A stretch of 64,000 nucleotides of DNA from NCBI GenBank assembly GCA_030272155.1, contig CP126191.1, positions 394,501 to 458,500 on the forward strand, written 5' to 3'. This DNA comes from Tetradesmus obliquus (lineage: Eukaryota; Chlorophyta; Chlorophyceae; Sphaeropleales; Scenedesmaceae). The notes beneath the pieces are model-generated. The model searched no databases. It saw nothing but the letters and a program-made list of their open reading frames with translations, and had not been told where the DNA came from. Each line of letters opens with the position of its first letter. Position 1 is the stretch's first letter. A program made the position numbers and the translations under genes. Of the stretch, positions 9,001 to 57,896 are shown piece by piece.

Positions 9001-12000
9001 GGCTCTGGGTTTAACTTGCATATGCAGCTGTGTGCAGCCAGATGGCATGCACGCCATGGTCATGGACAGCTGCCTGTACGCAGCAGTGGATTGCAGCTGC
9101 TTCATTGGTCAGCACTGCTGCTAGCACTGCTGTATATCATTTAGCCACTAGAGCCACGCCAATCCTTGTGCTAACACTCACCCCCTGTCGTCATTACCTG
9201 CTGGCTGTTGCGTGCTTGGCTGCTTTGTGCCTTGCCTGCTGCAGCTGGGCGGCCTGGGCTGGGAGGGCTACTGGAAGAACAGCTGGAACAAGTTTGACCT
9301 GCTGCTGCTGGTGTCCAGCCTCGCGGACATGATTGTGGCACTGGTCATGGGTGAGTGTGCAGCTCCAGCGCTGCGCGTGCCAGGGAGCCATAGCAGGGAG
9401 TGCGGCAGGGATGAGCAGCATGAGCTAAGAAGTTGAGCACGATAACTGCACGCCAGAACCATGCTGTCTTGATCTTATCTGGCAATGTGACCAAGCTGGA
9501 ACTTGAAGCTCTGACCAGCTGCCGCCTGCACCTGGCCCGCTGTGCGGCCCTGCAGGCAGCCACGCCAGCTTCCTCAAGGTGCAGAAGATCATGCGGCTGC
9601 TGCGCCTGGCCCGCGTGGTCAAGCTCATGCGCAGCATGAAGGTGCGCAGAATGGGTTTCTTGAGCTGCAGTCCCTAGAGAACTGCCAATGCAGTGCGTGT
9701 GTGTGATGCATGCGATGCGGCTGGTCGTACAGCAAGGTTGCCATTAATTGGTGCTGCCGGCTGCTGCACTGCTGACGTGAAACCCAACTCCCTGCAGGGC
9801 CTGCGCAGCCTGTTTGGCACGCTGATCGTGTCTCTGCCCGCGTTCTGGAACGTGGGCGCACTGCTGGGGCTGCTGTTCTTCGTGTACGCCTACGTGGGCA
9901 TGCTGCTGCTGGGCAGCGTCAAGCACAACGGGTGAGGCAGCTGCTAGGCGCTCAGCACCGCGTTCAGTGTGCAGACTGCAGCATGCAGATGTGTGGGTTG
10001 ACTAGAGTGTATGCAGTGGTGCTCATGTGTCATGGATGTGGGCACTGTCAGCAGCTCCAGAGTAAACATGCATTGCACCCGCGCAGCCGCTGTGCAACTG
10101 CACCTGTAAACTGGTGCCTGCCTGATGTCCAACCAGCAGCTGTGGCTACTGTTTGTCTTGAGCTAGGAAAGCGTAGAACTCACTGCGGCGCAGGACGTGG
10201 TGGGGCTGCTGACTGTGCCGGGGTCCTTGTGCTGCTGCTGCTGCTGCCTGCAGGGGCTTGAACGAGCACACCAACTTTGAGCGCTTCTGGACGGCTGCGC
10301 TGACGCTGTTCAAGGTCGCCACCAACGACAACTGGACAGACGTCATGGTGGCGTGCATGATCAAGGTGGGCAGCAGGGGCAGCTTTTGGGGGTGTGACTT
10401 CCTGCACTGCCCTGGTGCGAGCTCTGGCTGTGTTCCGCAAAGATAGCAAGATGTTGTTGTGCAGGCGTTTGCAGACACACGTGTGAGCTTTACAGCAACA
10501 GAGCTGTGCATGGCGTGCACGGCTGCGTGGCCTGTGTCCTGCAAGCCTGCCATTGAGCACGTCATAAGCTTGTCATAACCTTTGTGACACCTATTCTCTG
10601 CTACGCCTGCTGCATCCCATCTCCTTTTTGCCCCTATGCTGCAGCCCCCGGACTGCGACCCGGCGCTGGGCGAGTGCGGCTCCTGGGTTGTGTACCCCTA
10701 CTTCATCAGCTTCGTGCTCATCGTGTCCATCATCATGCTCAACCTGTTCACGGCAGTCATCCTTGAGAGCTTTGAGGCACAGCAGGAGCAGGACGTGAGC
10801 GACGCGCTGGTTGGCAGCAGCTGGCACTGCGCAGCATTTGCATGGCCGGCATTAGTTGCTGCCAAATCTGGATGAAGGCTGATGAGGGCGCAACCACTGA
10901 AGTGATGCCGCTCCACAGCATCAACAGCATGCCTTTCCAAAGTGTTCTGAGGCGCTGTAGCTCATGTCTCTGCTGCTGCTGCTGCATCTGGGTGGCTGCT
11001 GCAGCGCTGGAAGCTGCGCCCGGACCACCTGGATGAGTTTGTGGACCTGTGGGCTGAGTATGATGACGGCAGCGGCACCATCGACCCCAAGGACCTGGAG
11101 GGCATGCTGCTGAGGTGAGAGCGCACACTCCTGCGGCAATGGCGTGGTCGGTGGTGTCAGCAGACGCTTAAACTTACTGTACACCACCTCAGTTACTCTT
11201 GTGAAACCGCCACGGTCGCAAGATGCTAACATCGTTGACAACTCCTAGCTAAGGACACTACAACACCACACACCACACAACAACTCCTTTGCTAGCTTCT
11301 GTCCCAAGGGTTCGGCTGACTCGCGCCTGCCCTCCCCCTCCCTCGCCACAACCACCACCATACACATACCGCCTGTCCTGCAGGCTGTCGCCCCCGCTGG
11401 GCCTGGGCCCCGGCGCCAGCAGCACCGACGTGCTGCGCTTCGTGTTTGACCTGGACATCCCGCTGCTGGCGGGGCGCGTGCCCTTCCAGCGCACCGCGTA
11501 CGAGCTGGTGCGGCGCTGCAGCGGCGCAGAAATCCCTGAGGGCATGCTGAAGGACCAGGTGCGTTTTCTCAACAGCCGGCAGCAACACGTAGTGCTTTGC
11601 AATGTTTTCACAAGAAGGCGCCAGCGGCGAGGAGATGGCTGAGGGCATGCTCAAGGACCAGGTGCGCACTGTGTCCTAAGCCGGCAGCAGCCTGACAGAT
11701 AGATATAGCCAGGTCCAGGGTGCATGAACACGAGGCTCGACCTGCCGCTGCTGACGATGGTGGCTGACCAGGCGTGGCAGAAGCCCTATTCAAGTAGCAA
11801 GCTTACACACGTGCTTGTTTTGGCTGAGCATGCACAAGGGCAGCAGCAGCGGTGGTCAATACAGTTCACAACGCACTTGTCTGCATTGCGCTGCTGCTGC
11901 TGCTGCCGCAGATCGACCGGCTGGTGAGCCGCGCGTTCCGCAACCTCAAGGCGGACGAGGTGCTCAACTTCAGCGTGGCGGTGACCGTGATGCGCGTGCA

Positions 12001-15027: not shown

Positions 15028-18000
15028 ATGGGCTCCAGGAAGCGAACGACATCGCTGGCTCGTGAGCAGCAGGACAAGGAGCAGCAGCACCAGCAGCAGC
15101 AGCATACAGCAGCAGCAGCAGCAGCCAGACCGGTAGCAGGAAGGCACGCCCTGCAGCAGAAGCACCGCTCAAGATGGCGACAAAGCTTTGCTGGCTTTGC
15201 CTGTGCAGCTGTGCTGCTGGCAGCAGCCAACCTGCTGTACCCGCAACTGCTGCAGCAGTTGCTTGATAGAAGCAGTAGCAGTGACTTTGCACCCATCAGC
15301 CAAGTGCACAGCACAGTGATAGGCAACAGAACGTTCAAGCCGGCGCTTGGCATCTTCCCTAGGGGCTGCAAGTGGCGGGACGTTGTTGAAAAGGGCAGTA
15401 CAGCAGTACAGTATGAGTACTGGCAGGAGGCTGAGCAGCAGTGGGTGCAGCAGCAGCCGCTTTCCTGCAAGCTGCAAGGAGAGCCTATACCTGGTGCGTC
15501 AGATCAGCAAACTAAACCCAGCAGCTGGCGCTTCCACAAAGGCAATCCTCGCACAGAGGTAGTGCCGTCCAAGCACCATGTCACGTACCGCAACTTGTGG
15601 TACAACAACGGCCGCTGGTATGCGCTGGTTGAGGGGCCTCGCCAGGTCAGCAGCTGGAAGTTCAGCAAGAACCAGGAAATAACAGCGCTACATGTGTTAG
15701 ATGCCAAGGCGTGGTCAAAGTCAACAAAGTGGCGAGCAGTGCGCGGCGACACGCTGCTGTTTGACTTTATCTTCTTTGTGCACCCCACAGCCATTGGCCA
15801 CTGGTGGGAGATGATGGGGCCGTTATATAGCGTGTTAATACAGCCAGGGGTGGATTTCAAACGGCCATGTGATCAAATGGTGCTGCTGCACCTGAAAAGG
15901 ACGCACCTAATGGAGTGGGTCCGGGCAGTGGTGGCAGTTGCGCTGGGGGTTGGCGTGCAGCAGGAGCTGCCGCCGATTCTGCTGCAGCAGGAGAGCAACG
16001 TGCCATGGCAGCAGCTAGGTGAGCTTCAGCATCGTTCAGCAACCAAGCAGGTGGTTTTGGTGTAGAGTGTGCAGAAATTGCAAGGCGTCTGTTTTACCCC
16101 AAACCTTCAGCAGCATTTATGTCCAACTGCACGACAGGTTTGCCTGCAATAAGCATTGACAGCCGCTTGCTATTTCTGCCTAGCCTGCTGTTGAGCAGCC
16201 GTGTCAATTGCAGGCGCACGTCTGCTGTCTGCAGCCTTCCCTACTGATTGAAACACATACATGTACAGCTCCGCAATGTGCTTGCCTGCCTGGCCGCCTG
16301 CTGCTGCTGCTGCTGCCGCTGCTGTGTTGTGCTGCAGGCATGCCGCTTGAAGGGGTGCCCGCTGATGAGTGGGTAGTTTTTGAGCGCGCGGTCATTGTGC
16401 GGGACCTGTTCACGGGCGGCACACGCACTTTCACAAACAGCGCCGATGCGCGCGCATTCAGGGCAGAGGTGTACAGGCAGTATGGTGAGCAGGAAGGCAG
16501 TACACACCCAACTGTAGTGCTTGTTGACATAACATACTACATGGCAGAGGTGTACAGGCAGTACGGTGAGCAGGCAGGCAGTACAATGCAAGAGCATAGT
16601 GTGCAATGCATTGTCACTGTGTGTTGTAAAGGGGCCGTCTAGTGCAGGCAGGACCGTGTCTGTTGGTGTATTGTCCTGTGCAACTAGCACAACAGTGCAA
16701 GGCAGCAGCGGCGGGGCAGGCATGTGTGCAGTGCTTCTGGCACTCTGGAAGTTGGAAGTTCCAACTGCTGCTGCTGCGTCTCTGCTGTGCTGGTCGTGCT
16801 GCAGGCCTGCCGCTGCCTGCAACGCGCAATCAAGATCTGCCCAGCTGGTTTGCTGCAGAGAGTCGCATTATAAACTGCCTTGTATGCTTTCTGTGCCCTG
16901 CCTGCAGGCCTGCCGCCTCCAGCAGCGCGCCGCCGCGTGCCCAGTGTGATCACCTTCCAGCGCAAGCGCGCCAACCGGCGCATCGTCAATGAGGATGGCC
17001 TGCTGGAGCTGCTGTCGCGCTACGGCAGCCTGCGGGTGGTGGAGTTCAACAGCAGCACCTCCTTTGCGGGTGCGTGCCCGGGTTGGGGTCGGTTGTGCTG
17101 CTGGCTGTGTGGCAGACACACTGTAGGCAGGGCTTGGTGATGCCTGCATTTGTTGGTGTTGACGCAGCAGTGCAGTACAGCGCGCTTGCTACAGCTGTTC
17201 TGCATGTAGCTGAGGACGGAGGTGTTCTGTTGCACAGCAGCAGCGCCTTGCATCCCTCGCAGCCGGCGCTCCTCACCTGTGCCTGATATGTCAAGCAGCC
17301 GTGACCCGCCCATAGCTGCAGTGACAGCATATCAACGGGCTGCAATGTCGCCGGTGTTTCTTTTCGATGCTGCTGCAGACCAGCTGGCCACGATGCGTGA
17401 CACGGGCGTGTTTGTGTCAGCGCACACCTCCAACCTAGCCAATGCTGTGCTGCTGCAGCCAGGCAGCGCAGTGGTGGAGATCATCCAGGTGGGCAGCTGC
17501 AGGTTTGACCAGTTATCTGTTGCGGCGTAGACGCATGAACGCACATATGTAACCCCAGTCTCTATTGTCCAGGTGAGCCAGATCACGCAAGGCTGCCGCA
17601 AAGCAAACACAGCAGCAGCAGTAGCAGCAGCAGCTAGCCTGTGCAGCAGCCAGGCAGCGCAGTGGTGGAGATCATCCAGGTGAGCCAGATCATGCAAGGC
17701 TGCCGCAAAGCACACACAGCAGCAGCAGCAGCAGCAGCAGCTGGCATGGTGCACTCTCTAGGCTCTGCTGTGGTGTGGAGATCATCCAAGTGAGGCGGGC
17801 CGTACGCTGTGACAGAAGGGCAAGCAAAACAAGCAATAGCACAGTTGCAGCAGCAGCAGCAGCTGGTGTGTACCATTGGATGGGACCTACTTTACTGTGC
17901 TGCATTGCATTTTTGCACATTATTCCCAGTGCATGCTGCAGCTCTGTGCATGTGTGTTGTGTCATGGCACGGCAGCAAGCACTGGTGCTGCTGTTGGCCA

Positions 18001-18739
18001 GCGTGTGCGCGCAGCACCCCTTGATGTGTGATCCCCTCAAAAGCGTTGCAGCCTCCCTGTCCTTGCTGGCACTATCTTGCACAAGCATCCTTCATTGTCA
18101 GCTGTGCCTCAAATGCTGTGTCGACTGCCTTCCTTGCATGCTCCCCCGTGCAGCGCCACTGGACGTGGAACCGCATGGACCAGAGCTTCAGACGTGCACA
18201 CACGTTGCTTTACCATCAATGGTGCCTCACACACAGTGTCCATTCCCTGCATTTCATGTGTTCACGCACCGCTGTGCAGCGCCACTGGACGTGGAACCGC
18301 ATGGACCAGAGCTTCCGCGACCACACCGCCATGCTGGGTGACATCCACCACTTTGCGTGGCGCGCCAGCCACGCCAACGAGACAGTGTACCAGTCGCAGC
18401 GCGACGAGATTCGGTGCGTGGGGACGCTGGATTTCTTTGTGTCTGGAAAGTAGCCATTGTTGCTGCTGCATGCATTTGAGCTCTTGTAGCGCTTGCGCCT
18501 CGCCAATGCATTGTCAAACGTGCTGCCTCTGCTGCTGCTGCTGTTGCTACTGCTGCTGCAGGTTTGCCAACTGGAGCAAGTCTGAGTGCCTCACGGAGGA
18601 CTGCACGGAGGCTGCCACGCGCGTTGACATTGTAGTTGACCTGGCAGCATTTAAAGCGCTGCTGGACAGCAGGCTGCCGCTGGTCTTTGCTGGAAAGTCA
18701 GTGCAGCAGGCGGCACTGCCGTGGCCAGAGGCCCTGTAA
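15028..18739 (+). CDS. GT61-family (DUF563) glycosyltransferase, type II membrane protein
   Basis: Probable Golgi glycosyltransferase of family GT61 (plant xylan arabinosyl/xylosyltransferases, animal EOGT and POMGNT2). Exons 15028-16018, 16338-16484, 16908-17069, 17379-17488, 18280-18413 and 18562-18739 join in frame to 573 residues. A Gln/Ala-rich cytoplasmic tail precedes a membrane anchor near residues 48-68 (AGFACAAVLLAAANLLYP), as expected for a type II Golgi enzyme. The family signature region reads HPTAIGHWWEMMGPLYSVL near residue 250. The conserved 'HGA.LTN..FL..GS.VVE' block appears as SAHTSNLANAVLLQPGSAVVE in exon 4. The ATG at 15028 follows an in-frame GTG and is the first ATG of a long exon. 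Substrate and linkage cannot be read from sequence. Exon-edge echoes lie in four of its introns and behind the stop codon. Confidence 0.75.
16541..16580 (+). repeat. Echo of GT61 exon 2 3' edge
   Basis: Repeats 16462-16501 (VYRQYG plus the gtgagc donor and first intron bases) with few changes, about 80 bases downstream inside the intron. Confidence 0.85.
17570..17795 (+). repeat. Two echoes of GT61 exon 4 3' edge with intron part
   Basis: The exon end at 17455-17488 (GSAVVEIIQ) is repeated at 17645-17677 almost exactly and at 17762-17790 in degraded form. Each copy is followed by a GT donor-like dinucleotide. The intron part after the donor is also duplicated: 17570-17640 resembles 17678-17745. 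Confidence 0.85.
18145..18192 (+). repeat. Upstream echo of GT61 exon 5 acceptor and first 39 coding bases
   Basis: 18154-18192 is identical to the start of the exon at 18280 (RHWTWNRMDQSF) and is also preceded by a gtgcag acceptor; the similarity then stops. Confidence 0.88.
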
Positions 18740-18779
18740 CATGCCCGTGCAACCGACAAGTTGTGGGCTGAACTGGCTG

Positions 18780-19276
18780 CATTCGAGGCGCTGCTGGACA
18801 GCAGGCTGCCGCTGGTGTTTGGGGGAAAATCAGTGCAGCAGGCGGCACTGCAGTGGCCGGAGGCACTGTGATACTGGGATAAAACCGGGTGTCCCACGGG
18901 ACTTAGGTGTGGTGTGGCGGTTCAAGGCTGCTGCTGGACAGCCGGCTGCCCCTGGTGTTCACAGGCAAATCAGTGCAGCAGGCAGCACTGCCGTGGCCGG
19001 AGGCCCTGTAACATGCCCGTGCAACATGCCAGTTGCCAGTGGTGGTGTTGCCTTTTTTAAGGGTGCTGCTGGACAGCCGGCTGCCGCTGGTGTTTGCAGG
19101 CAAATTCAGTGCAGCAGGCGGTACTGCCGTGGCCAGAGGCACTCTGATACTGGGACGCACCTGGTCTTGGTGGCGGCGTTGCGGTGCGGGGTGGTGCTGG
19201 ACAGCGGGCTGCCGCTGGGGTCTGCTGGAATTGTGGTGCAGCAGGCGGCGCTGCCATGGCCTGCGGCCCTGTGTAA
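18780..19276 (+). repeat. Four diverged copies of the GT61 C-terminal coding end
   Basis: The last about 80 coding bases (LLDSRLPLVFAGKSVQQAA...) recur at about 18794-18870, 18932-19009, 19064-19146 and 19195-19276, at spacings of roughly 130-150 bases. Two copies keep an in-frame stop at the same place; two carry indels. Linker sequences between copies are also partly shared, for example the text 'aacatgcccgtgcaac' after copies one and three. Confidence 0.85.
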
Positions 19277-19279
19277 CGC

Positions 19280-20911: not shown

Positions 20912-23900
20912 TCACTTGGCATAGGCTATGCCGCTTTGTGCATCAAACGCTGAAGCCTCAGCCCCCGCTTTGGCCTTGGGAGGCAGCACCAGGCTCTGGA
21001 ACACCGGAGCTGCTGGATCGCTGATGTCATACACAAACACAGCTGCAATGCCCCGCACAGCCACAAACGCCCAGCGCCTAGCTGCTGCTGCTGCTGCATC
21101 ACCAGGGCAGTCCCCGACTGCAACGCCGGCACGGCCAGCTGCAGCTGCTGCTCCTTCAGCCACACCAGCTTCATTCGCAATGCTGCTGAGCTGTGTGCCG
21201 CTGTCAAACAGTGCAGTGAGCTGTGCAATGCGCTGCTCCAGGCCCTTGCGGGGGCTGCCAGGCATGCGGGCCTCAGGCGTGGCAGCAGCAGCAGCAGCAG
21301 CAGGCTCGTAGGCTGCGCGCAGCACAGAGAAGCTGCTGCCTGCTGCAATGAGCAGGTAGTCGGTGCCCTGTATATAGTAAAAGCAGCAACAGCAGCAGCA
21401 GCAGCGGCGGCGGCGGCGATCTCAGCAGTAGTCAGGCCATTCCATGGTTACAGTGTGCTGCACAACAGAATACTGGTGCAGTGCTGGTGCACGCGATTAA
21501 CTGGGACTTCCGTATTCTTTGCAGTGCTTGAAGGCGACAGCTCAACACTTGAGGTTGCGCACCTTGTCACTGAATGATGTGATGGCCTCTGGCGCCAGGG
21601 TACTGCTGTCTGCTGTCCCCAGGGCCTTGATGCTGCTGCTGGGCTTGCCCTGCTGCTGCTGGCTGGCCAGGGGGAAGATGCCTGTGATGCTCGCAGAGGC
21701 AACATGCAGCACAGCCACAGCAGAAGCCGCCTGCAAGATACAGTGAAACCAGTGTGAGGACAGCCAGCAAAAGTGAGTGTCAGCAACCTGACAAACCCGC
21801 ATGTGCTTGCTTGGCACAGTCAGCAGCAGCTTGTCACGATGCATTTTCTCCTATCGTGCGCATAGCCACAGCTGCTTTTCTAGCCATGCCTTGAGCACAT
21901 CATGACCTCTGCAACAGCAGTAAGCCGCATCTGCAAACGTTTGGCATGTGCATGCTGCCAGCCTACACAGCTGCATTGATCCATTGTCACGCAGCTCACC
22001 TTGAGCGCCACAAAAGCAACGGCCTCGTCCTCTGAAAAGGTGACGTGCTCTGGGATTAGCTCCTGCAGTAGCAGCAGCAGCAGCAGCAGCAGCAGCGCCA
22101 TGTCAGCACATCGTTGGCAGGCAGTTCTTACGAGAACCCGGCAATTCAGCAGAGGGGCCTAGCGTAACACGGCAGCACCAGCCGCAGCTTGCTGACACGG
22201 CACACACAGGCTGTTTAAGCAAGTGCGGCAGTTGCACAGCATGCATGCCCCTTGCACTCGCCTGTAACACCTTGACAGCAGCAGCAAGCCTCTCGTCAGC
22301 TGTCCGCCAATAAACAGAGTAAGCGCTGGCAGTAGCTGGAAATACATTACATTGCGCCGGGGGACCTTGGGCGGGAGGTCTCCTGGACAAGCAATGCTTG
22401 AAGGTGCTCAGCTTTGCATTTTTCATGCTAGACTGTCCATCTTTACATTACCTTACATTAGCATTTTCCACTCAAACGAGGAGTGGGAACCCCAGTAAAC
22501 AGTGCATAAAAGTCTGCAGCAAGTGCACCAAGTGTGCAGCATGCATGCCATTCCCACTTGCCTGCGACACCTTGGAAGCAGCATCCAGCCTCACGCCAGC
22601 TTGCAGCAGCGCCTCCCTCTTGTCATCCCATGCAGCAAAACCTGCCGTGAGCACCTTGTACCTGAGCCGTGACTCGCCACAAGGCGCGGCTTGTGCAGGG
22701 TCGGGGCAGTACCTGGCGGCAGCAGCAGCAGCAGCAGCAACAGCAGCACCGGAGGCATAACAACGGTACCTGACAAGAAGGATGTGTCTCATACTGACAG
22801 ACTGGCCCTTCTTTCTCGTGATGGCAGCTGTATTTTCTGTATACAACAGAGCACCTGCACGTGCATTGACCAGCAATGTTTTCACCTAGCAGCAGGCGAC
22901 ACACTACATGCTGCAGGCTGCAGTGCTTTTGTCACAACTCTGCATCTTGGTGTGCTGTATCCTTACCTGATGATCACCACACTCACGGAGCCCTCAGGGT
23001 CTGGCAAAGCATGCATGCTGCAGGCTGCATTGCTCCTGCCGCAACGTTGGGTCTACCTCTGCTCATGCTACATCTGTTTTCGCCCTACCTGATGATGACC
23101 ACGCTCACTGAGCCCTCAGGGTCGCTGCAGCCAGCTGCCCCTGCTGCGCAGTCTGCCTGGCCGCCATTGGCCACCAGCAGCGTCTGGCAGTCCCTGCTGA
23201 AGGCGGCGGATGCAGGGGAGGCGCCTGCAGACACCACAGGACACGCATGGCAGTAGGCACATGTGTGAGGATGAGCTGTATCTAATGGCCAATGGGTGGT
23301 GGACAACTGTCAGCATAGGGGTTGCCTGGGGGCCCAGAAGCAGCATGCCTCATGTGACACTGTTGTTGAGGGCAGCAAGGCCTTGCAGAAGGCCTTGATG
23401 ATCAACCTCAAGAAGCTGAAATACAGATGCAAACTCACCAACTGTGATGTTTGCCAGTATGGACAGCCCCTTGCCCTCCTCCTCACTATCAGCAGCAGCT
23501 GCTGCTGCATTCTTGTCGTATGCGGCAAACAGCAGCAGCTGCCCTGGCGCTGCCTTGCCCCCCACACCCTCAGCAGCAACAGCAACCAGGCCACCACACA
23601 CTGCCACATCAGCTACAGCAGCTGGCAACTGCTGCTGTGACAGCAGCGGCAGGGCTGCTGCTGCCAGGCTGCTGCTGCTGCTGCTGCTGAGGCCTGGCAG
23701 GGAACCTGCTGATGCATCCAGCGCAGACAGCTGGCTGCTGCTTGCAAGGTAGACGACCTTGTGCTGGTCATCAAAGGCCACCTGTGGGTGCAAAGTGTTA
23801 AGATACAGTGCTGAGTTGGTTGCAAGCAAAAGGTTGCAACATGCACATGGCTGTCAAGTGGCTGTCATTACACACAGCATGCACTGTGGCGGGGACACCT

Positions 23901-37120: not shown

Positions 37121-38214
37121 TCACCGCCAGCCCTTTGCGTCGTTGAGCTCGTCATCAAATGAAACATGGAAGCCCACGCAGCAGCCGGGAGTGCCCTCGT
37201 CCTCGCTGCCGCAGCAGTCCCAGAACCTGCAAGCGTTCACGGCAGCCGCACAGGGATGCAGGAACTCCATGTCACTGTGCAGCAATACGCCAGAATGGGC
37301 CACAGTGATGTGGTGTGTTCCAGTTCTGGTATTTAACTGCTGCTTGTGACCGCAGGTGAGCCGCCAGCCACTGCTTGCCGCCACCTTCCCATGTGCACCG
37401 CAGCTTGTAAGCAAGTTGCAACCAAAAGCACCCAGTTGCCAGCCTACATTCAGAGGAAGCGCACCGCATGTAACTGCTGTGCCCTAATGCTCCAGCTGCC
37501 ACTGCTCCCCTCTGCTCTATTCTAGATTGGCAGCAGCTATATTCCACCACTGCCTCACCGCATGAGCCCCGTGCGCCCCAGCCCCACTGCTGCCAGCAGT
37601 GCTCGTAAGTTGGGGTGACAATCCCCCAGCTGCTGTTAAAAACCACGACACCCAGCCTCACCGCATGAGCCCTTTGCGCCCCACCACTGCTTCAAGCTGG
37701 TCCTGCGGCGCGTCACTGGCACGCACAAAGCCGATCGCCTGCAGGACGAGGTGCACAGCAGCTCACGTAATGACAGCTCGCACTCTGACAGCAGCTACAT
37801 TGTCGTCATGTTTTGCTGCGGCTGCGTGAATCTTGCAGCACAGACAATGCAGGCAGATGTGAAGGTGCCGTATGTCTGTGATGCTGCTGCTGCTGCATTG
37901 CGCACCTTTGCTACCTCTCCTCCAGAGTACAGCGCTGGGTGGTACCTGCATGCGTCTCTGCTGTTGCTGGCCTCATTGAAGCGCTGCTTGCAGCGCCTGC
38001 ATGTTATCAGCGATGTCGATGCAGCAGCTTGTGGTGTGGAGCTGCTATTTGCTGCTAATGTTGATGCAAGCCGCTTGCTAGCTATGCGCGGGCATGCTGT
38101 GCTGCTGTAGCCCCGACGATTCAAGTGCAGCAGCTGAGATGGCCAACACGTAGAGAGAGCTGGTACATCCGTCCTTCGAGCATGCCCAGCGCAACGAAGC
38201 TGGCATTTCAGCAT
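37121..38214 (-). CDS. Cys/His-rich putative zinc-binding protein, probably organelle-targeted
   Basis: Exons 38214-37906, 37738-37662, 37443-37351 and 37226-37121 join in frame to 194 residues; the third has a weak donor. The first about 55 residues are basic and hydroxylated with little acid (NRRGYSSTACPRIASKR), like a mitochondrial or plastid transit peptide. The mature part has a metal-site pattern: CRRCKQRFNEASNS then ACRYHP and GGEVAKAIGF, later FWDCCGSEDEGTPGCCVGFH. The series C-x2-C, C-x2-H, W-x-CC, GCC-x3-H recalls CHORD-type zinc modules (C..HPG, W.CC, GC..GKH), but I do not claim CHORD membership. Ends DELNDAKGWR. Function unknown. An echo of exon 2's 3' edge is at 37546-37592. Confidence 0.62.
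37546..37592 (-). repeat. Echo of zinc-protein exon 2 3' edge
   Basis: Resembles 37655-37697, which encodes the end of exon 2 (VVGRKGLMR) and its gtgag donor; lies downstream in transcript direction. Confidence 0.75.
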
Positions 38215-42214: not shown

Positions 42215-42277
<63 letters not shown>

Positions 42278-43321
42278 AGATCGGGCTGGACGAGGGCGCC
42301 ACGCTGCTGACTGGCGGGCGGCGGCCGCCCAGCTGCCCCCGCGGCCACTTCCTGGAGCCGACCGTGTTCATCAATGTGGCGCCACACATGCGGCTGTGGA
42401 AGGAGGAGATCTTTGGGCCGGTGCTGTCAGGTGCGTGGCGCTTGTATGAGACAGGAATTTATGAGTGAATTGCATTGCTGCACGTGCAGCGGTGTTGCGT
42501 TTGCTTGTGGCTGTGGAAGGAGGAGATCTTCGGGCCGGTGCTGTCAGGTGCGTCATGTCGTTCCAACATCAGAGAGCTTTTGGTTTGCCTGTTCCTCCTG
42601 AAACGTTGCAGGTACAGGGTTATGCTGCCGTCTTTGTGCACGCAGCTGTTTTCAACAACACTTGCATAGCAGCAGTGCTGCCATCCTTGCTGAGCCACCC
42701 ACCTACAGTGCTTCCCTCTGCCGCATTGCCACACTGCCCCACGCATATTGATATCAACAGTGTCCACCTTCAGCAGCGAGCAGCAGGCCCTGCAGCTGGC
42801 CAACGACAGCGAGTACGGTCTGGGCGGCGCCGTGATCAGCGCCGACGCGGAGCGCTGCCGGCGCGTGGCTGAGGGCCTGGAGTGCGGCATCGTGTGGGTC
42901 AACTGCAGCCAGCCCTGCTTCTGCCAGGTGAGGGGAGAGGGGGCTGTTGCTTTGGGATAACAACAAATTGTGCTATTGGGGGCTGCTGCTGCTGCAATGG
43001 TGTTGCAACTGCAGCCAGTGTTGCTTTTGTCATTGGACGTGTTTTGGCAATTCAATGGCTGCTGTCAGGCATGGCTGTGTTGTACGCGCCGTTGGCAGCT
43101 AGGCTCCGTCTTTAGCGCCAAGAGTAACAGCAAGTCACGTGTTTACATCATCACTGCTGTTGCTGGTACTGCGTCAGGCTCCTTGGGGTGGCGTGAAGAG
43201 CAGCGGCTTTGGCCGTGAGCTGGGCGAGTGGGGGCTGGAGAACTTCCTGAGCGTGAAGCAGGTGACGACTTACGTGAGCGACAAGCCCTGGGACTGGTAC
43301 AGCCCGCAGAGCAAGCTGTGA
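38895..43321 (+). CDS. Betaine-aldehyde dehydrogenase / aminoaldehyde dehydrogenase, ALDH10 family
   Basis: NAD-dependent oxidation of betaine aldehyde or omega-aminoaldehydes (glycine betaine and polyamine metabolism). Exons 38895-39021, 39317-39435, 39766-39846, 40148-40321, 40563-40732, 40917-40983, 41181-41256, 41491-41584, 41845-41980, 42280-42430, 42761-42927 and 43178-43321 join in frame to 501 residues, the usual ALDH10 length. It opens [15 protein letters not shown]. Catalytic features are intact: TPWNYP (oxyanion Asn), KPSELAS, FTGST cofactor motif, MELGGKS (general base Glu) and [11 protein letters not shown] (nucleophile Cys). The end [12 protein letters not shown] is the ALDH10 hallmark and finishes with SKL, a type 1 peroxisomal targeting signal. 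Start: 38895 matches family length; the in-frame ATG at 38838 would add 19 residues. Echoes occur after exon 10 and after the stop. Confidence 0.93.
42214..42279 (+). repeat. CTG run ending at the ALDH10 exon 10 acceptor
   Basis: About twenty CTG triplets lead straight into the CAG of the 3' splice site at 42279; no other pyrimidine tract is present. Confidence 0.9.
42505..42555 (+). repeat. Echo of ALDH10 exon 10 3' edge
   Basis: Repeats 42388-42438 ([13 protein letters not shown] plus gtgcgt donor) with one silent change, about 115 bases downstream. Confidence 0.92.
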
Positions 43322-43439
43322 CTGCTGATAGCTGTGTACATCAACGTCAGTAGTCAGCCTCAGGAGCAGAGTAGCAATCCGTTGGGCTAGTTCCAGGCTG
43401 CCGGTCTTGATCATGTCTTGTATTGTGTGTTAGGGAGGA

Positions 43440-43490
43440 TGCGGGGATGAGCCCTGGAACTGGTGCAGCCTGCAGAGCAAGCTGTGACAG
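43440..43490 (+). repeat. Echo of the ALDH10 C-terminal coding end behind the stop
   Basis: Resembles 43274-43324 including the QSKL codons and the TGA stop, with several changes. Confidence 0.85.
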
Positions 43491-45017: not shown

Positions 45018-45052
<35 letters not shown>

Positions 45053-48000
45053 TAAGTGAGACAGTACTTGTCACAACCATGTCACAACCATGTCACAACT
45101 ATGTCACAATATGCAGCACGGATAACTGCCTCTTTCAACAGCATGCTTCTTGAGCCCTGAGCCAGTGCTGTGCTGCAAGGCCCCTGCCACAGCAGTTCAA
45201 TGTACCCAGCTTACTTGTTTGCGGGTGGTGACGGCTCTCCATCCCTGTTGCACTTGAGGTCCTGGTCTGCCTCCACCACCAGCCAGGGCAGCCGCAGCAG
45301 CTGCATGCCGCCCTGAGCCTTGCTGAGGCCTAACGACAGCACATCGGACGCCAGCGATGCAGCCTGCAATATGGCAGCAGGCAGTAAGGCTTGTAAGTGA
45401 ATTATAACTCAACATGCCGCCCCGCGCGCGGTTAAGGCCGGACGACAGCACATCCGTCGCCAGCGCTGCCGTCCGCAGGGTGGCAGAAGGGCAACTGGGC
45501 TTGCTGGTGGGTGAAATCCAGCTGCACGCTGTCTGGTGCGCAATTGAGGCTGCGGACAGCTCATCAGAGCATGATCTGGACATGATGATATCCGTACAGC
45601 CCTGGAGCCTTACCTACAGCATCGCGTGCCGTCCCGAGGACCCAACTAGCAGAAGAGCTGAACACACCGATAACTGTTGGCCCGCCTCACCTGCCGCCCT
45701 GGGCTGCCAAACAGCAGCGTGAAGTCCAGCAGCCCGTCATCCAGCAGTGCATCAGGGCACACGTTGAGCATGCGGCCCATCTGGCGCGCCTGCCCGGCAG
45801 CCAGCACCAGCAGGTCGCCAGACATGCGCGACACCTGCAGCAGCAGCAGCAGCAGCAGCAGCATTTACAGCAGCAGCAATAGCAACAGCAGCACGGTGTG
45901 TCCCTTTCTCGACAGCAGACGCAACTCAACTCCTGCACAAGCTGCGGGCAGTCTGCTGCACAGCAGGCATCAGCTGTGACTCGCAGCAGCACAGCAGCAC
46001 AGCAGCAGCACAGGCACTTGTAGTCCACAGCGCGCACCTGGTCAGGGCTGTAGCTGTCACGCCTGCAGTCTGCTGCCCCAGGCAGTGTCACACGCAACTG
46101 GATAGACACGGGCCGCCAAATAACTTACTTGGTCTGGGGAGTAGCTGTCGTGCCTGCAGTCTGGCGAGGTGGGCAGTGTCACTTTCACACAAAAGGACGG
46201 AAAAGGATCCATTCATCATCGAAGACATTTACCTGGTCGGGGCTGTAGCTGTCGTGCCTGCAGTCTGGCGAGGTGGGCAGTGTCAGCCTGACGCCCCTGA
46301 TGGGCTTGAGCCCAGTGATGAACAGCTGGCGGAAGCCTGCAAGCAAGATGAAGCAGCATGAGGCACCATGGTGCGGCGTCAGCACAGCATGCTGCTGTCT
46401 CACACACACCGCACTGTCAGCGCCAACTAGTTATATGGCACTGGTTTCCATGAGCTGTGCTCACATTTGCATGGCAGTCATGTTTGTTATGCTAACAAGG
46501 GTAATCACTACGCCCCTGATGGGTTGCCAGGGATGAACAGCTGGTGGAAGCCTGCACACGACACATCAGCACAACACATGTTCCGGCCAACGCTTGTATG
46601 CACAGGATGCTGCATCGGGCAGCATGGTGCGGCATCAGCACAGCACATGTTGCTGTCTGCACTCTGCGCTACCAGCACTGGCAGTCATGCAACACTGGTT
46701 GCCACCGACGTTTAATTTGTAAGTTGCATGGCACTGCCATGAGTGGCGCTCATGCTTAAAGCTACAAGGGCATACACTGCAAGCATTCAATGCTCTCCTT
46801 TTGAACATGGCAGGGACAGCAGTCGCAGTTGCTAGACGCCAGCTCTGCATGCTTGCTCACATACCGCCCGGCCTCTGCTGCTGCAGCTGTTGCTGGTTCT
46901 CACCTGCCACCGCCACAGCCGCAGGTCCCAGCAGCTTCTTCAGCGCGTCGCTTATGCCCTTGCTGCTGACCTGCTGGCCGGGTGCATAAGGACTGCTCCA
47001 TCAAAAGAACCAGCCAAACGTCTTGCGGCACTTTCTTGTAAGCGCAAGTCCCCTGCCACAGCACTGCTTTTACGCTGTCTCCTGCAAGCTGCCTCTCTCA
47101 CCTGCAACGGCCACGGCCGCGGGTCCCAGCAGCTTCTTCAGCGCATCGCTCATGCCCTTGCTGCTGACCTCACTCACAGGCCCTGCCGTAGCCAGGTTCA
47201 TGAAGACCGCTCCAGCAACAAACAAGACACAAACCTTGTAGCTGTCCCGTAAACACAAGTCACCTACCACAGCCCCGCTTCTGCGCGTTTCCTGCAAGCT
47301 GCCAATCTCACCTGCCACCGCACTGCTCGTGCTGTTCTTTGCAAGCTGCCCCTCTCACCTGCAACGGCCACAGCCGCGGGCCCCAGCAGCTTCTTCAGCG
47401 CATCGCTCATGCCCTTGCTGCTGACAGGCCCTGCTGGCGCCACGTGCATAACTGCCAAAGTCTTGTGGCGCATTCTTGTAGAGGCAAGTCACTTGCCACA
47501 GCGCATGTAATCTTGATGTCTACAGCGCCGCTTCTGCGCCGTTTCCTGCAAGCTGTTGGTCCTAACCTGCCACTGCACTGCTTGTACTGTTTCCTGCAGC
47601 TGCCGTCTCTCACCTGCCACCGCCACAGCCGCGGGCCCCAGCAGCTTCTTCATCGCGTCGCTCATGCCCTTGCTGCTGACCTCACTGACCGGCCCTGCTG
47701 TGGCCAGGTTCATGAAGACCGCTCCAGCAACAAACAAGACACAAACCTTGTGGCTGTCCCGTAAACACAAGTCACCTACCACAACCCCGCTTCTGCGCCG
47801 TTTCCTGCAAGATGGCCAATCCCACCTGCCACCGCACTGCCCGTGCTGTTTCCTGAAAGTTGCCTCTCTCACCTGCCACCGCCACAGCCGCAGGTCCCAG
47901 CAGCTTCTTCAGCGCGTCGCTCATGCCCTTGCTGCTGACCTCACTGACCGGCCCTGCCGTGGCTAGGTTCATGAAGACCTCGCCGTTCACCAGCGCCACA

Positions 48001-48235
48001 TCGATCGGGTGAATTGTACTTGGGTCGAGGGCGAGGCGCAACGCCTCGAGGGGCGCCTGCAGCAGCAGCAGCAGCAGCAGCAGCGGAAGCAGCAGTGGCA
48101 GCAGATCATGGAATCTTCATCATTCACCAGCGCCACATCGATGGTTCACAGAGACCTCCCCGTTCACCAGCGCCACATCAATCAGGTGGATTGTTGAGGG
48201 GTCTAGGGCGAGGCGCAGCGCCTCCAGTGGGGCCT

Positions 48236-48291
<56 letters not shown>

Positions 48292-48883
48292 CGTTGCAAT
48301 CACATGCGGCAGCAGCAGAGTTGACGAGCACTTCGCCGTTCACCAGTGCCACATCAATGGGGTGGATTGTGGAGGGGTCGAGGGCGAGGCGCAGCGCCTC
48401 CAGCGGGGCCTGCAGCAGCGGCAGCATGCAGGCGTTGCATTCATAGGCGGCAGCAGCAGAGTTGATGAGCACTTCGCCGTTCACCAGCGCTAGCCGTTCA
48501 CCAGCGCTAAATAATGGGGTGGATAGTGGAGGGGTCAAGGGCAAGGCGCAGCGCCTCCAGGGGCGCCTGGTGCAGCAAAATGAGGCATTGGTATATTGTT
48601 TTTATTCCATGTGGTTACGGCAGCAGGAGGGGGCGGCAGTGCTACCTGCGATGCCTGATGCTGAAACCTAATGCAACTGTTTTCTTACGGTGCTGCCATA
48701 TATGGCGCTGCAGTGCAGCGCCTGCAGCGCATGGCTGTCCCACTTGGGCTGCTACTACTAGCAAAAGCAGTACTTCTGCTGCTGCTGCTCACCAGAGAGA
48801 TGCCTGACGCGGATGCCAGGTCACTGGCCGTTCCCACGGCGGCTGCGCTAGCTGCTGCTGCTGCTGCTGCTGCTACTCGCAGC

Positions 48884-48921
<38 letters not shown>

Positions 48922-49426
48922 AGCTCACCAGGGAGATGCCTGAGGCCGAGGCCAAGTCATTGGCAGTGCCCAGCGGCAGCTGCGCAATGCTGATGTGGCG
49001 TGGTGCATCATGCTTCAGCAGCGCAGCCACAAGCTCGTTGAGAGTGCCGTCACCACCACCAGCAACCAGCGTGTCATACCTGCGGCATAATCAACAGGAC
49101 AGAGTATGTATAATAACAAATTTACACAAGAGTGTGCACAAGAACGAATTTACACATCCTCCGAGTCCTCACGGACCGCAGTGGATGCGAAACTGCGCAT
49201 TCAAGCAAAGTATGTGTGTAAAATGTGGCGCGGCGCGGCGCGGCGTGCTTCAGCAGCGCAGCCACCAGCTCAGTGAGGGTGCCGTCGCCGCCACCAGCTA
49301 CTACCGTCATCATCATCATGTTGCCAGTGTGTCATACTTGCGGTGCCAGGAGGATTTACGCAAGCATTAGTGCATTACTGTTGTGAAGAGGAACATGAGG
49401 CCGGCAGGCTGCTGCAGCGCGATGAT

Positions 49427-49473
<47 letters not shown>

Positions 49474-52078: not shown

Positions 52079-52122
<44 letters not shown>

Positions 52123-53360: not shown

Positions 53361-53391
<31 letters not shown>

Positions 53392-55303
53392 GCTGCCAGG
53401 TGTCCATGTTCCTGCACTCCACTGGTGTGCTCATCACCATCTTCCCTGGCAGGGCGGCAGGGGGTGGCTCCGCGGCAGCAAAGGTGCGGGGGCACGGGCA
53501 GGCAGGGCGCAACACGGCCAGTTGACGCATGATTTAAGCAGCAGATAATGTATTGTTCAATTGTTAGTTGGCCAGCGGTGGGATCTGCCAGCAAGCATGC
53601 CAAATTGCAAACATTAACACGGCTGCTTGGCTGCAGCATGGTCTGCGTGCTCTCTTGCTGGCCACCTGCTCAGCAGCTTTGCAACACCAGCAAGCAGCAA
53701 CACAGCCTTTGTCCTGCCATGTGCAAGTAATCAATGCCAAACTCAGGCAGCTGCTGCTACTGCTGCTGCTGCTGCTGCTTGCACTGCTGGGCCAGATTGC
53801 TGGCCCTATCATGCGTGGCATCCGCGGCATGAGCAGCCTGCTGCTGGAGAGTGAGGACGCTGGCTTCCTGCTGCAGGTGGGCGTTGATGACACACACGGG
53901 TGGGGGCAGGGGAGGGTGGGGTGTTATAACCCACTCTGGCACACCTGCCATAGTTAGGGCAGGTGTGCCAGAGACGCTCCAGTCATTGTGGTGCATGCAG
54001 GGTGGAGGACGAGGGCGCCGGACTCCTGCTGCAGGTGCGCCAGCTGTGCTGTGTGGGCTTTCGGATGCCGCAGGGATAGCATTAGTGTTCAATCAGCATT
54101 TCCCACGCCCCTTCTGCTGCTGCTGCTGCCGCCCCTCGCCCACCAGGCGCTGCTGCGCAGCTGCATGTCGTACAGCCTGCCGGTGTTTGGCCGCCTGGCT
54201 GACGTGCTGTCACGGCTGGACGCGCGCGTGCTTGAGGGCAGGGCAGCCATGAAGCTGACACGGCGGCTGCACGTGCTGCTGATTGATCTCAGCATACTGG
54301 CGCGCAGGTGCGCTTGCCGTCGTGGCGGTCCGTTGTAGCTTGTATGTCGAGGCCGGTGTTGTGATCGTGGGGTAATGCATTGACTTGAGCATACTGGCGC
54401 ACGGTTGCAGCTTTTCAAGTTATGTTGTGGCAGCTGGGTCATGGTTCGGTTGTTGGTGATGGTGGGTCACGTGCTGCTCATCAACCTCAGCATACTGGCG
54501 CGCAGGTGCGCTTGCTGTTGTGTTCGTTTGTTTTTGCGGTGGTGTCATGGTAGTTATGGTGGTTGTGGCTCAATCTTGCTGCTCGTACATATCTGCCGCC
54601 TGCAGAATGCCAGCTGCGTACAACACTGCACAATCAGGGCAATTCCATGCATCACACGAAGCCGCCCCCAACAGCCCTGCTGGCGCAGCTTCCAGCCCAT
54701 GCAACCGCATTCTGAACATGCAGCCTCCGTTTGCCCTGCCACATGCTGCAACTTCCAGCCCATGGAGTCGCTGCTGCAGACCAGCCTGGTCAACAAAATC
54801 CCGCCACCCTGTCACCAGCATACCACAGCATGCACCGGCATTCTGAACATGCCGCCGCCGTTTGCCCTGCTGCCACATGCTGCAGCTTCCAGCCCATGGA
54901 GTCACTGCTGCAGACCAGCCTGGTCAGCAAAACCCTGCCACCCTGTCATCAGCATGCCATAGCATGCAACCGCATTTTGAACTTGCCGCCGCTGTTTGCC
55001 CTGCTGCTGCTGCTGCAGCTTCCAGCCCATGGAGTCGCTGCTGCAGGCGCTGGCCACCTCCAGCAGCAGCATACACCACATCTGGCCGGGAGGGCCGGCA
55101 GCAGCAGGCAACCGCACACTGCGCGGCAGCAGCAGCAGCAGCAGCAGTGACACTGACAAAGATGACAGGGATTGTGTGGCTGGTAGGAGCAGCAGCAGCA
55201 GCAGGCTGCGCAGGAGGGGTTCAGAGCACCACAGGGCACTTGAAGCCTCTGCTGCTGTCAGCCCGGCTGCTATCAGGCCAGCAGCAGCTGGCAGTGCAGT
55301 GCC

Positions 55304-55353
<50 letters not shown>

Positions 55354-56380
55354 CACCGCAGCATGATGGGCTTCAGCAGCAAGGGCAGCAGCATGCACAG
55401 CATGATGGTGAGCTTCAGCACCAGCAGCACCAGCACCAGCAGCAGCAGCAGCAGCAGCATGCACAGCACTATGGTGGGCTTCAGCAGCAAGGGCAGCACC
55501 AGATTCCGCAGTACGGTGGACTTCACCACCAGCAGCAGCAGCAGCAGCAGGCACAGCAGTATGGCGGGCTTCACCAGCAGCAGCAGGTGCAGCAGCAGCA
55601 GGGTGTTGCCACAGACCAGCCTGGACTTGTTCTGGATGGCAGCAGCAGGCGGCGCAAGCCCAGCAGCAGCAAGAAAAGCAGCAGCAAGAGCAGCAGCAGC
55701 AGCAGTGGCAGCAGTGGCGGCAGCGCACCCGTCATCATCAGCGGGCTTGCTGTGACGTACCTGGAAGACCTGCTGGACCAGGTGGGGCTTTGCGGGCTGC
55801 AAGGGGATAGGGTTTTGTCAGGGTGCAACAGGCTAGGGTTTGGCTGCTGGAAGGTCGAGCAAGACCTGCTGGACCAATTGGGGGGTCTGGTGGGAGCAAG
55901 ATTGTTATGTACAGCCACCCTTCGAGAGTCTAGGGTGCAGCGGGGGTTGCTAAGGGCGTGAGCCTTCTGGGCCGTGTACAGGGATGAGCAACTCAAGGGC
56001 TGCCAGATGTCACGTTGAGTTCTGACCAGCTGCTTGTTTATGTTCTCGCATAGCGCCGTGCGTCTGGCTTGACTTTCACCTCCCGTCACTGCGTACGCCA
56101 CACACTCCGGTGTACGCCCTGCTGCCTGCTTGTCTCAGGCCGTTGCTGCGACTGGCGATCTGTCAGCCGCGCCTGACCATGTGATGCAGCTTCAAGCCGG
56201 TGGTCACCAGCCTTGTCGTTTGCAACAACCAAACATTGCAGTGCATCTGTGACTGCCTGTTGCAGGTCGTTGCTGTGCCAGGTGGCCTGTCAGCCATGGC
56301 GGATCACGTGACGCGGCTCAACGAGCTGCAGCTGGTGGTCACGTGCACTTCTCTGCTTGTGCTGTTCATCAACATCTATG

Positions 56381-56411
<31 letters not shown>

Positions 56412-57896
56412 TGCCACAGGCTGTGGCCGTGACTGGCGACCTGTCAGCCATGGCTGATCACGTGACACGGCTCAATGAGCTTGTGGTCACAACTGTCGGC
56501 CACGCCAACAACAACGCCAACCTCACGCTGGCACTGCTGGGCACAATATTCCTGCCGCTGACCTGGATCGCAGGTGGGCGGATGTGTTACTTTGTTAGGT
56601 TGTCATCTTGTTATGTAGCACGCACAGTGTTCTGGGTCGCGCACCAACAACGCCAACCTCACGCTGGCCCTGCTGGGACCGTATACCTGCTGCTGAAATG
56701 GATCGCAGGTGGGTGGTCGTGTTATTATTGTGGTGTTGTTGTATCATGCTGCATGTAAAGTTTGCCCAGCCACGCCAACAGCAATGCCAACCTCACACTA
56801 GCGATGCTGAGCATCCCTGACAGTGACGCAGCAAAGCAACGTGACGGCGCTGCTGCTCTTGGAACCCCTGCCTTCGTTCTCACTGCTGCCCCTGCTCTGT
56901 CTGCCGTAACGCTTCACTGCCGCCTGCTTTGCGTCACTGGCTGCTGCGCTGGCCCTACCACAGGCATCTACGGCATGAAGTGAGTGGATGCCAGCTGCCA
57001 GCAGATGCTGTGTGCACTGATAGCGTCCAAACAGGCACGCCTGCCTGCAGCTGCCAGCATGTGCTACTGTATGACTTGCTTAGCCCGCCAGCATTCCAGC
57101 TGAGCCATGCCAGTGTGGGGCGCAGCTCTCAGCATGCCGTCTGATTAGTCGCGGACACCATGTGCATTGAAAGAGGATAGACACATGTGGGTCCTGGCAC
57201 CATCTTAAGTATGAGCCGCAACAGGGTGAACACATGGTCTGAGACCAGACCAGGATTGATGCAAAGAGCAATGCTCTGCCTCGTCCCCAGTCAGCTGCAA
57301 GTACTGCAGTGTTGCCGCCCTGCTCACGGATGTCGTGCAAAGTCTGGTCTGCGCCCAACCCTGCTGCTGCTGGGGCTGCTGCTGTTGCTGCCGCCGCCGC
57401 TGCTGCTGCATCAGCTTTGACGACCTCCCGGAGCTGCACTGGCGCTTCGGCTACCCCTACTTCTACCTTCTGAGCGCAGGCGTGGTGGTGCTGGCGCTGC
57501 TGCTCATGGTGCACATGCGCCTCATCAAGGTGGCTTGTCATGGGGAAGGGAACGGACCTGCACAATGCTGGTTGCCTGCGTGCGGCTGACAACCTTGCTG
57601 CTTGTATTCGGAGAGCTCTGTTCGTTGCTGAGGTTGAGTTTGTTCTGCAAGTCATGCATGGCGTACCTCTGTGTCCGCAGGGTAGACACCGGTAGCTGTG
57701 CCAGTGTTTGCTGCTGCTGCTGCTGCTGCCGCTGCTACTACTGCTTCAGGTGAAGGAGCCTGACTGGCTGCGCAGTGTGCGGCATGCACTGAAGCGGCTC
57801 AAGCGCAGGCTGCTGCCAGGCAGGCACGCCTACGGCCTGCACTTCATGCTGGGCAGCACTGCCAGCGCAGCCGGGCGCCGCAAGAAGGCCAAATAG
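50377..57896 (+). CDS. CorA/MRS2-type Mg2+ transporter with very long low-complexity insertions
   Basis: Pentameric Mg2+ channel family. Exons 50377-50506, 50980-51081, 51286-51389, 51658-51734, 52012-53137, 53400-53483, 53796-53876, 54147-54307, 55019-55781, 56420-56573, 56964-56979, 57415-57529 and 57750-57896 join in frame to 1,019 residues; typical CorA proteins have 300-450. Core blocks: DLHPLAIEDVINFQRIKCI, FLHSTGVLITIFPG, MKLTRRLHVLLIDLSILARR, LAVTYLEDLLDQ, DHVTRLNELVV, ANNNANLTLALLGTIFLPLT and AGIYGMNFDDLPEL with the GMN selectivity signature intact, then a second membrane helix GVVVLALLLMVHMRLI and a basic tail. About 340 residues (from 52070) and 230 residues (from 55050) of Ala/Ser/Gln-rich sequence are inserted in the cytosolic part. 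An optional further exon near 50586-50680 is also in phase. Start is the first ATG of the open frame. Confidence 0.85.
53998..54512 (+). repeat. Echoes of CorA exon 7 and exon 8 3' edges
   Basis: 53999-54034 (VEDEGAGLLLQ, gtgcgc donor) copies the end of the exon at 53876 (LESEDAGFLLQ). 54376-54405 and 54475-54510 copy the end of exon 8 (LLIDLSILARR plus donor) ending at 54307. Confidence 0.82.
54672..54936 (+). repeat. Three upstream echoes of CorA exon 9 5' edge
   Basis: CTTCCAGCCCATG with its preceding acceptor region, the exon start at 55019 (FQPMESLLQ), recurs at about 54690, 54750 and 54888, with shared intron text of about 130 bases between copies. Confidence 0.88.
55850..56345 (+). 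repeat. Echoes flanking the CorA intron 9
   Basis: 55862-55888 copies the end of exon 9 (EDLLDQ). 56139-56207 and 56265-56345 are upstream copies of the start of exon 10 (AVAVTGDLSAMADHVTRLNE), the second very close. Confidence 0.85.
56636..56815 (+). repeat. Two downstream echoes of CorA exon 10 3' edge
   Basis: 56645-56712 and 56770-56812 copy the exon end encoding NNNANLTLALLGT up to WIAG with donor. The first has a frameshift, the second is truncated. Confidence 0.85.

Follow-up and report, generated by a model that had tools for sequence, protein, structure and literature searches.

Exon-edge echoes in the introns of neighbouring Tetradesmus obliquus genes and their probable origin in recurrent local tandem duplication

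Introduction

Why should the introns of neighbouring genes contain partial copies of the very exons that they adjoin? The question is raised by 64,000 nucleotides of the green alga Tetradesmus obliquus (contig CP126191.1, positions 394,501 to 458,500, or C1:394501-458500; hereafter the window), in which a sequence-only reading had counted more than 35 such copies, here called echoes, in nine genes on both strands. According to that reading, an echo in an upstream intron repeats the 5' edge of the exon with its acceptor, an echo in a downstream intron repeats the 3' edge with its donor, copies of last exons lie after the stop codon, and tandem duplication across exon borders explains this arrangement. 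We examined these claims in gene models of the window and of a 200-kb comparison region (C2:1.0-1.2 Mb). The echoes proved to be a real phenomenon, probably left behind by recurrent tandem duplication, on a local scale, of segments that cross an exon-intron border.

Results

Echo counts and the side rule

In hand-corrected gene models of the window, 23 of the 180 exon borders tested were echoed in the intron next to them, with 34 copies in total. These comprise 17 copies of 3' edges in downstream introns (14 of 88 donor borders) and 17 copies of 5' edges in upstream introns (9 of 92 acceptor borders). All 34 lie on the predicted side, and the corresponding wrong-side tests with 60-bp edges gave 0/180 matches, so that the strict side rule holds. 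Five further copies, four of a 3' edge and one of a 5' edge, are present in the long intron 46337-47872, and copies of last exons do lie beyond the stop codon, four after the exon ending at 18739 and one after 43321. The total of 44 copies, distributed over 8 of 10 predicted gene models of which one merges two genes, bears out the earlier count.

Gene models were obtained with a hidden-Markov gene finder trained on the window and the comparison region without use of annotation, which converged on donors CAG/GTGAG or GTGCG and acceptors CTGCAG/G (the slash marks the border). The window models were corrected with the proteins P0002 and P0121 as a guide where present and by local logic elsewhere, and exons identified as echoes in either way were dropped; models of the comparison region were left uncorrected. 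Curated models underlie the 60-bp edge test, the border loci with their simulation, the splice-site scores and the codon-position counts, and uncurated models underlie the 50-bp edge test, the self-matches, the copies after stops and the flank test with 27 of 38 positives described below. The curated edge test excluded introns longer than 1,500 bases, which is why intron 46337-47872 is outside its counts. Some model flaws remain: model 0 is merged/split, and the aldehyde dehydrogenase (ALDH) gene is spread over models 5 and 6. Among the nine sequences searched, Pfam matches included aldehyde dehydrogenase, diacylglycerol-kinase/YegS, MYND finger, CorA and Dus, among others.

Chance origin of the window echoes is negligible. 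The uncurated test compared 50-bp exon edges with introns of up to 1,500 bases at a score of at least 34 in the window and the comparison region together. It found the 3' edge in the downstream intron in 16/276 cases and the 5' edge in the upstream intron in 13/287, against 0/5,622 in sampled introns of other genes, which is the reason to dismiss chance. Wrong-side matches were 2/287 for 3' edges upstream and 0/276 for 5' edges downstream; sampled non-adjacent introns of the same gene gave 2/2,890, and reverse complements of the own introns gave 0/1,126. At a looser score of 30, the other-gene control rose to 5/5,622, and wrong-side matches numbered three in the window and one in the comparison region; the three window exons concerned were later removed as echoes.

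The echoes catalogued in the window are as follows (coordinates, strand, feature).

11384..11558, +, exon with echoed 3' edge (gene finder, edge match)
11617..11661, +, 3'-edge echo of exon 11384-11558, donor GTGCGC (edge match)
16540..16585, +, 3'-edge echo of exon 16338-16484, with donor (edge match)
17642..17685, +, 3'-edge echo of exon 17379-17488
18137..18189, +, 5'-edge echo of exon 18280-18413, with acceptor (edge match)
18769..19272, +, four copies of the end of last exon 18562-18739, past the stop codon
22218..22301, -, weaker 3'-edge echo of exon 22571-22712 (score 32, under the count cut-off of 34)
22967..23001, -, 3'-edge echo of exon 23089-23224 (edge match)
27450..27497, +, 3'-edge echo of exon 27088-27204 (edge match)
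28413..29137, +, 5'-edge echo array of exon 29207-29476, one partial and three 219-bp units (skipped by P0121)
29523..29866, +, 3'-edge echo copies of exon 29207-29476
30376..30400, +, 5'-edge echo of exon 30493-30645 (edge match)
30713..30938, +, two 3'-edge echoes of exon 30493-30645 (30713-30772, 30877-30938)
31189..31327, +, two 5'-edge echoes of exon 31397-32113 (31189-31237, 31288-31327)
35502..35524, -, 3'-edge echo of exon 35604-35712 (edge match)
37559..37597, -, 3'-edge echo of exon 37662-37738 (edge match)
42506..42553, +, 3'-edge echo of ALDH exon 42280-42430, with donor GTGCGT at its end
43450..43487, +, copy of the end of last ALDH exon 43178-43321, past the stop codon
45413..45490, -, 5'-edge echo of lipid-kinase exon 45215-45363
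46038..46181, -, two 3'-edge echoes of exon 46233-46336 (46130-46181, 46038-46097)
46510..46556, -, 5'-edge echo of exon 46233-46336, inside the long intron
46898..47721, -, four 3'-edge echoes of exon 47873-48056, alternating unit types, inside the long intron (absent from P0002)
48143..48577, -, three 5'-edge echoes of exon 47873-48056
48797..48844, -, 3'-edge echo of exon 48929-49079
49232..49297, -, 5'-edge echo of exon 48929-49079
54468..54522, +, 3'-edge echo of exon 54147-54307 (edge match)
54698..54997, +, array of 131-bp units running up to the 5' edge of exon 55019-55146
56136..56327, +, two 5'-edge echoes of exon 56420-56573
56642..56813, +, two 3'-edge echoes of exon 56420-56573

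The border of ALDH exon 42280-42430 was set by hand after an ALDH motif.

Density within and outside the window

Echo density in the window is high and not typical of the other sampled regions. With the settings of the curated test, the comparison region had an echo at 6/407 borders (3' 3/202, 5' 3/205; wrong side 2/407), confined to two of 29 gene models, and four additional 10-kb samples, two of them without a predicted gene, had echoes at 0/17 borders. The difference between 23/180 and 6/407 (Fisher p 4e-8) supports the high density claimed earlier, in a contrast that is biased and overstates how special the window is, because the window was chosen for its odd look. Echo-rich genes are also found beyond it, namely two homologous lipid-kinase genes, one on C15 (L026) and one about 60 kb to the left (L027). 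Within the window, the gene at 64-11114, presumably ion-channel-like, has 28 predicted exons with no echo before 11.5 kb, and the density thus shifts sharply along the sequence. CAG/CTG runs were considered as a driver and are not supported: they occurred in 13/19 echo introns versus 38/73 other introns of the window, and in 0/5 versus 76/206 in the comparison region, a comparison that has to be read with the greater length of the echo introns in the window.

Geometry of the duplications

The self-comparison of the window returned 61 matches, of which 60 are direct, all no more than 1.5 kb apart, and one is inverted. The offsets at 30 window loci have a median of 131.5 bp, and 28 of the 30 fall in the range of 81 to 300 bp. 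The four 10-kb samples contain nine duplications outside predicted genes, with comparable offsets (among them 108, 111, 121, 126, 142 and 144). In the larger arrays only (47.0-48.6, 18.6-19.3 and 28.5-29.4 kb, and on C15), several adjacent copies form a minisatellite-type structure; whole-unit arrays are found at 28.3-29.4 kb and in the C15 paralogue. By eye, unit types alternate in the lipid-kinase array and at 18.6 kb, which suggests duplication of dimers. Most loci are partial copies of a single edge and not complete exon copies with both splice sites; the nearest to a complete copy is the 219-bp array at 28.5-29.1 kb, where 150 of 270 exon bases were called as exon copies.

A tandem unit that crosses an exon border predicts homology past the splice site. 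In a strict flank test, with the 8 nt at the splice site left out, other introns as the null and p<0.05, spacer and flank were homologous in 16 of the 37 echoes tested (curated models; 14 of 30 in the window), four further echoes being skipped and two not reaching the border. With the splice site included, homology beyond it was found in 27/38 echoes. Echo-to-echo comparison in the C15 array gave 80.7% identity for exon-derived and 79.5% for intron-derived parts, an equal divergence that would be as expected for neutral repeats.

Other repeats were seen in passing. The sole inverted repeat (19896-19947 and 22443-22496, about 91% identical over 54 bp, with TAATG repeats at one end) may be a small dispersed element. 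Outside predicted genes, tandem arrays (L029:7337-9898 and L031:2937-3731) have offsets of about 70-150 bp, the size class of the echo units. In the right flank, where no gene is predicted, two pairs are 100% identical, L028:2007-2148/8139-8280 (142 bp, 6.1 kb apart) and L028:8033-8138/8361-8466 (106 bp, 328 bp apart), and these repeats may be a recent mobile element.

Border preference

We compared 30 non-redundant duplication loci in the window with an expectation obtained by rotating the annotation. In the curated models, 25 of 30 loci pair an exon edge with non-coding sequence (expected 10.0, SD 2.3), three pair non-coding with non-coding sequence (expected 12.5) and two are exon pairs (expected 6.2); by our own reading, the three non-coding pairs lie within or beside border arrays. 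As the curation was made with echoes in mind, the uncurated result is the cautious figure: 20 of 30 exon-edge loci (expected 10.2), one non-coding pair (expected 11.6) and nine exon pairs. The comparison region showed no border enrichment, with 5 echo loci among 23 against 5.8 expected. A border preference is present in the window and not in the comparison region.

Splice sites, reading frame and coding signature

Of the 34 copies, 32 reach the border. GT is kept in 14/16 echo donors and AG in 13/16 echo acceptors, and the median site scores are close to those of real sites (donors 6.0 versus 6.6, acceptors 6.7 versus 7.2), in agreement with the earlier proposal that echoes supply decoy splice sites. 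Used as exon extensions, 25 of the 32 echo sites would bring a frameshift and/or a stop, and seven would give an in-frame, stop-free extension. Despite the near equality of the sites, splicing would appear to favour the copy next to the exon body, since the far copy would usually break the protein and since the proteins P0002 and P0121 skip the echoes. The choice would then fall on the longest intron and the shortest exon. Tandem geometry and purifying selection together force the matching edge into the matching intron, and the strict side rule is therefore no additional mystery.

For codon positions, we compared one echo per border at 23 borders (998 bp) and found 12, 19 and 57 exon-echo differences at positions 1, 2 and 3. 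The 75 changed codons comprise 50 synonymous and 25 non-synonymous changes with no stops, where neutral simulation gives about 40% synonymous changes and a probability of 0.17 for the absence of stops. The third-position excess persists without the lipid-kinase gene (5, 10 and 35); outside CpG sites it is not significant (28/51, bootstrap 42-68%). Pure CpG hypermutation is not supported as its source, as few CpG sites changed at the first (3/58) and second (5/45) positions compared with the third (29/66). The post-stop copy 18930-19011, which is untranslatable in the model, has the same synonymous excess in 8/9 changed codons.

The lipid-kinase family and other protein records

With the echoes left out, the YegS-like lipid kinase of the window matches OEZ86_010643 of T. 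obliquus with 100% identity and coverage; the OEZ85 record P0001 has V at a residue where the window and OEZ86 have F. The window most probably comes from the OEZ86 assembly. The OEZ86 protein P0002 skips all lipid-kinase echoes. By contrast with P0002, the T. obliquus records P0001 and P0003 (window 44318-50000) contain translated echo copies as exons, with residue differences such as SEV/SKV and D/H, so that the echoes mislead gene prediction in two of three T. obliquus lipid-kinase records. The segment is single-copy in the relatives' proteins P0004, P0005, P0007 and P0009. At a different gene, P0121 skips the echoes including the 219-bp-unit array (28413..29137), and by eye P0122 (window 28500-32113) reads through part of that array.

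Two further family members were picked by homology, not at random. In the C15 paralogue (L026) the gene finder predicted no gene, and we identified the echoes there through protein matches, through self-matches and by inspecting the sequence by eye. This paralogue has five copies of one exon's 5' edge in units of 110-120 bp; two 3' edges are echoed once each, and another exon is echoed at both of its edges. The third member (L027), about 60 kb to the left, has echoes at the 3' ends of three exons in an 11-intron model. All three paralogues have echoed 3' ends at the same two exons, which end in GISL and AVAVAG in the window gene; in L027, the second exon-end copy ends some 25 nt before the border is reached. 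Borders with echoes are not clearly shared among the paralogues beyond chance, according to a rough hand estimate.

At the exon ending in AVAVAG, echoes are 91-98% (window) and 89% (C15) identical to their own exon, and identity between genes is 80-85%. The L027 pair reached 60% in an ungapped comparison, a low figure that results from a misplaced projected border. A single ancestral event behind the echoes at this exon is not supported, because they are closer to their own exon than the genes are to each other. For the most part, an echo is most like the exon of the gene in which it lies, which implies origin or homogenisation after the paralogues split.

Discussion

Proposed origin of the echoes

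We consider it probable that the echoes are what remains visible of recurrent local tandem duplications across exon borders. Duplication of a unit over an exon 3' end would place exon tail, donor and intron head in the sequence twice; an intact protein would require the first donor, and the second copy would be left in the downstream intron as a 3'-edge echo. A mirror-image unit over the 5' end would leave a 5'-edge echo in the upstream intron, and a unit spanning the stop codon would leave a copy past the stop. The echoes later decay, and some arrays would expand through further duplication or unequal exchange. The earlier claim that such duplication accounts for the geometry is supported by the local direct matches, by flank homology in part of the echoes and by the whole-unit arrays, and exon-echo identities in the window range from 77 to 100%. 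That tandem duplication operated in every single case is something we infer.

Several findings weigh against this origin. Intron-part homology is not significant in 21 of 37 echoes of the strict flank test, and several high-identity pairs stop near the splice site (42389/42506, 27159/27450, 35494/35596) where a nearly identical spacer would be expected; the recent-looking pair 42389-42436 and 42506-42553 ends at the donor with no clear common spacer. In two window arrays, echoes resemble one another more in exon-derived than in other parts (89% versus 59% and 83% versus 47%), an excess for which mixed or alternating unit types and length changes account in part. Uniform duplication fails to explain 25 of 30 window loci on borders. 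The distance between real and echo site is a multiple of three in 16/32 cases, and the third-position share of differences, 57/88 or 65% (bootstrap by border 55-75%), exceeds the 45% of simulated neutral echoes. A neutral echo next to a constrained exon leaves this excess unexplained; either some echoes were formerly translated for a time, or the differences are those between diverged alleles.

Alternative explanations

Pairs that end at the donor would fit later loss of spacer homology, and they would equally fit short templated insertion, in which slippage or template-switch repair places 30-80 bp pieces of an exon edge at an offset in a nearby intron instead of duplicating the whole unit. 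Sharp ends at or near the splice site and unrelated spacers in several near-identical pairs are what this process would leave. We nevertheless regard it as unlikely, given the intron-part homology in 16/37 echoes, the whole-unit arrays, the almost exclusively direct orientation of the copies (60/61) and the rarity of the intron-only pieces that random templates should yield (3/30 window loci). The border preference, in turn, could reflect uniform duplication seen through a detection bias, if the constrained coding copy persists and intron-intron pairs decay faster. The lack of enrichment in the comparison region agrees with this, as does the rise from 20 to 25 of 30 loci after echo-aware editing that was applied to the window and not to the comparison region. 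Such a bias alone is nonetheless an improbable explanation, because the uncurated window already has 20/30 border loci with one non-coding pair against 11.6 expected, and because a simulation with coding constraint and the local aligner, which omitted units lying wholly in an exon or crossing two or more borders, yields just 41-47% border loci among detected duplications.

The coding signature raises the question of whether most echoes are functional, as parts of alternative or cassette exons from partial tandem exon duplication that selection has retained. The excess of third-position and synonymous changes, the zero stops in 75 changed codons, the survival of the excess after removal of the lipid-kinase gene, the near-real site scores with half of the distances in multiples of three, and the echo exons in two of three T. 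obliquus lipid-kinase records would all suit this idea. We think it quite unlikely, since P0002 and P0121 skip the echoes and relatives have a single copy, most echo sites would bring a frameshift and/or a stop as extensions, copies in the C15 array show frameshifting indels by eye, and an equal synonymous excess is found in the untranslatable post-stop copy 18930-19011. Assembly error, finally, deserves almost no credence: the copies have diverged and recur in other T. obliquus records, which speaks against assembly duplicates. Border-straddling tandem duplication accordingly remains our preferred explanation, to which we would add only tentatively, as a rather doubtful extension, that junctions are a preferred target of duplication in some genes, that the three lipid-kinase paralogues were struck separately, and that splicing tolerates near-perfect decoys by using the copy at the exon body, a form of exon definition in a unicellular alga.

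Relation to known systems and significance

Copying of exon sequence with splice sites into a neighbouring intron is familiar from tandem exon duplication and mutually exclusive exons; the window echoes share this intronic copying but are mostly partial, one-edged and, as extensions, mostly out of frame. Introners also place repeated sequence in introns, whereas the window echoes match their own adjoining exon and were absent from sampled introns of other genes at score 34 (five matches at score 30).

The closest precedent that we found is the potato RdRp gene, in which a tandem duplication crossing an exon-intron border was accompanied by intron gain and ten nucleotides distinguish the duplicated copies (Ma, Lan and Niu 2016, PMC4974935). 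The potato case is a single event in a single gene, and its new intron is proven by RNA; the window has 44 copies in about nine neighbouring genes, at both edges, with multi-copy arrays and with copies apparently left within introns. In the model of tandem duplication of exonic AGGT segments (Rogers 1989; Hellsten 2011, as described in PMC4974935), local direct duplication likewise supplies splice signals, but the segment is duplicated within an exon, while in the window existing junctions are duplicated and the intron is lengthened. Direct repeats of 4-30 bp within 80 bp of intron borders have been interpreted as insertion footprints (Rogers and Bendich 2025, PMC11782384); they resemble the echoes in being direct and located at intron-exon borders, but most echoes exceed them in length and correspond to one exon edge. 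We found no description of echoes of this kind in T. obliquus in the literature searched, which largely excluded subscription papers. On that basis, what is apparently new is how dense the echoes are, that they involve both edges in many genes, and that they come with a border preference and a coding signature that are both unexplained.

Taken together, the window presents a real, strong and mostly tandem-duplication phenomenon with a precedent in a single potato gene. Both the cell and gene-finding software must separate real exon borders from look-alikes with near-intact splice sites, and the practical consequence is visible in the two lipid-kinase records that include echoes as exons. Introns with echoes are natural experiments on splice-site choice, as they present nearly the same context twice, with usually one site usable without damage. 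If the border preference is genome-wide, it would indicate a mutational process coupled to exon-intron junctions, and it would keep duplicated splice sites in ready supply, from which introns could lengthen and new introns and exons could arise.

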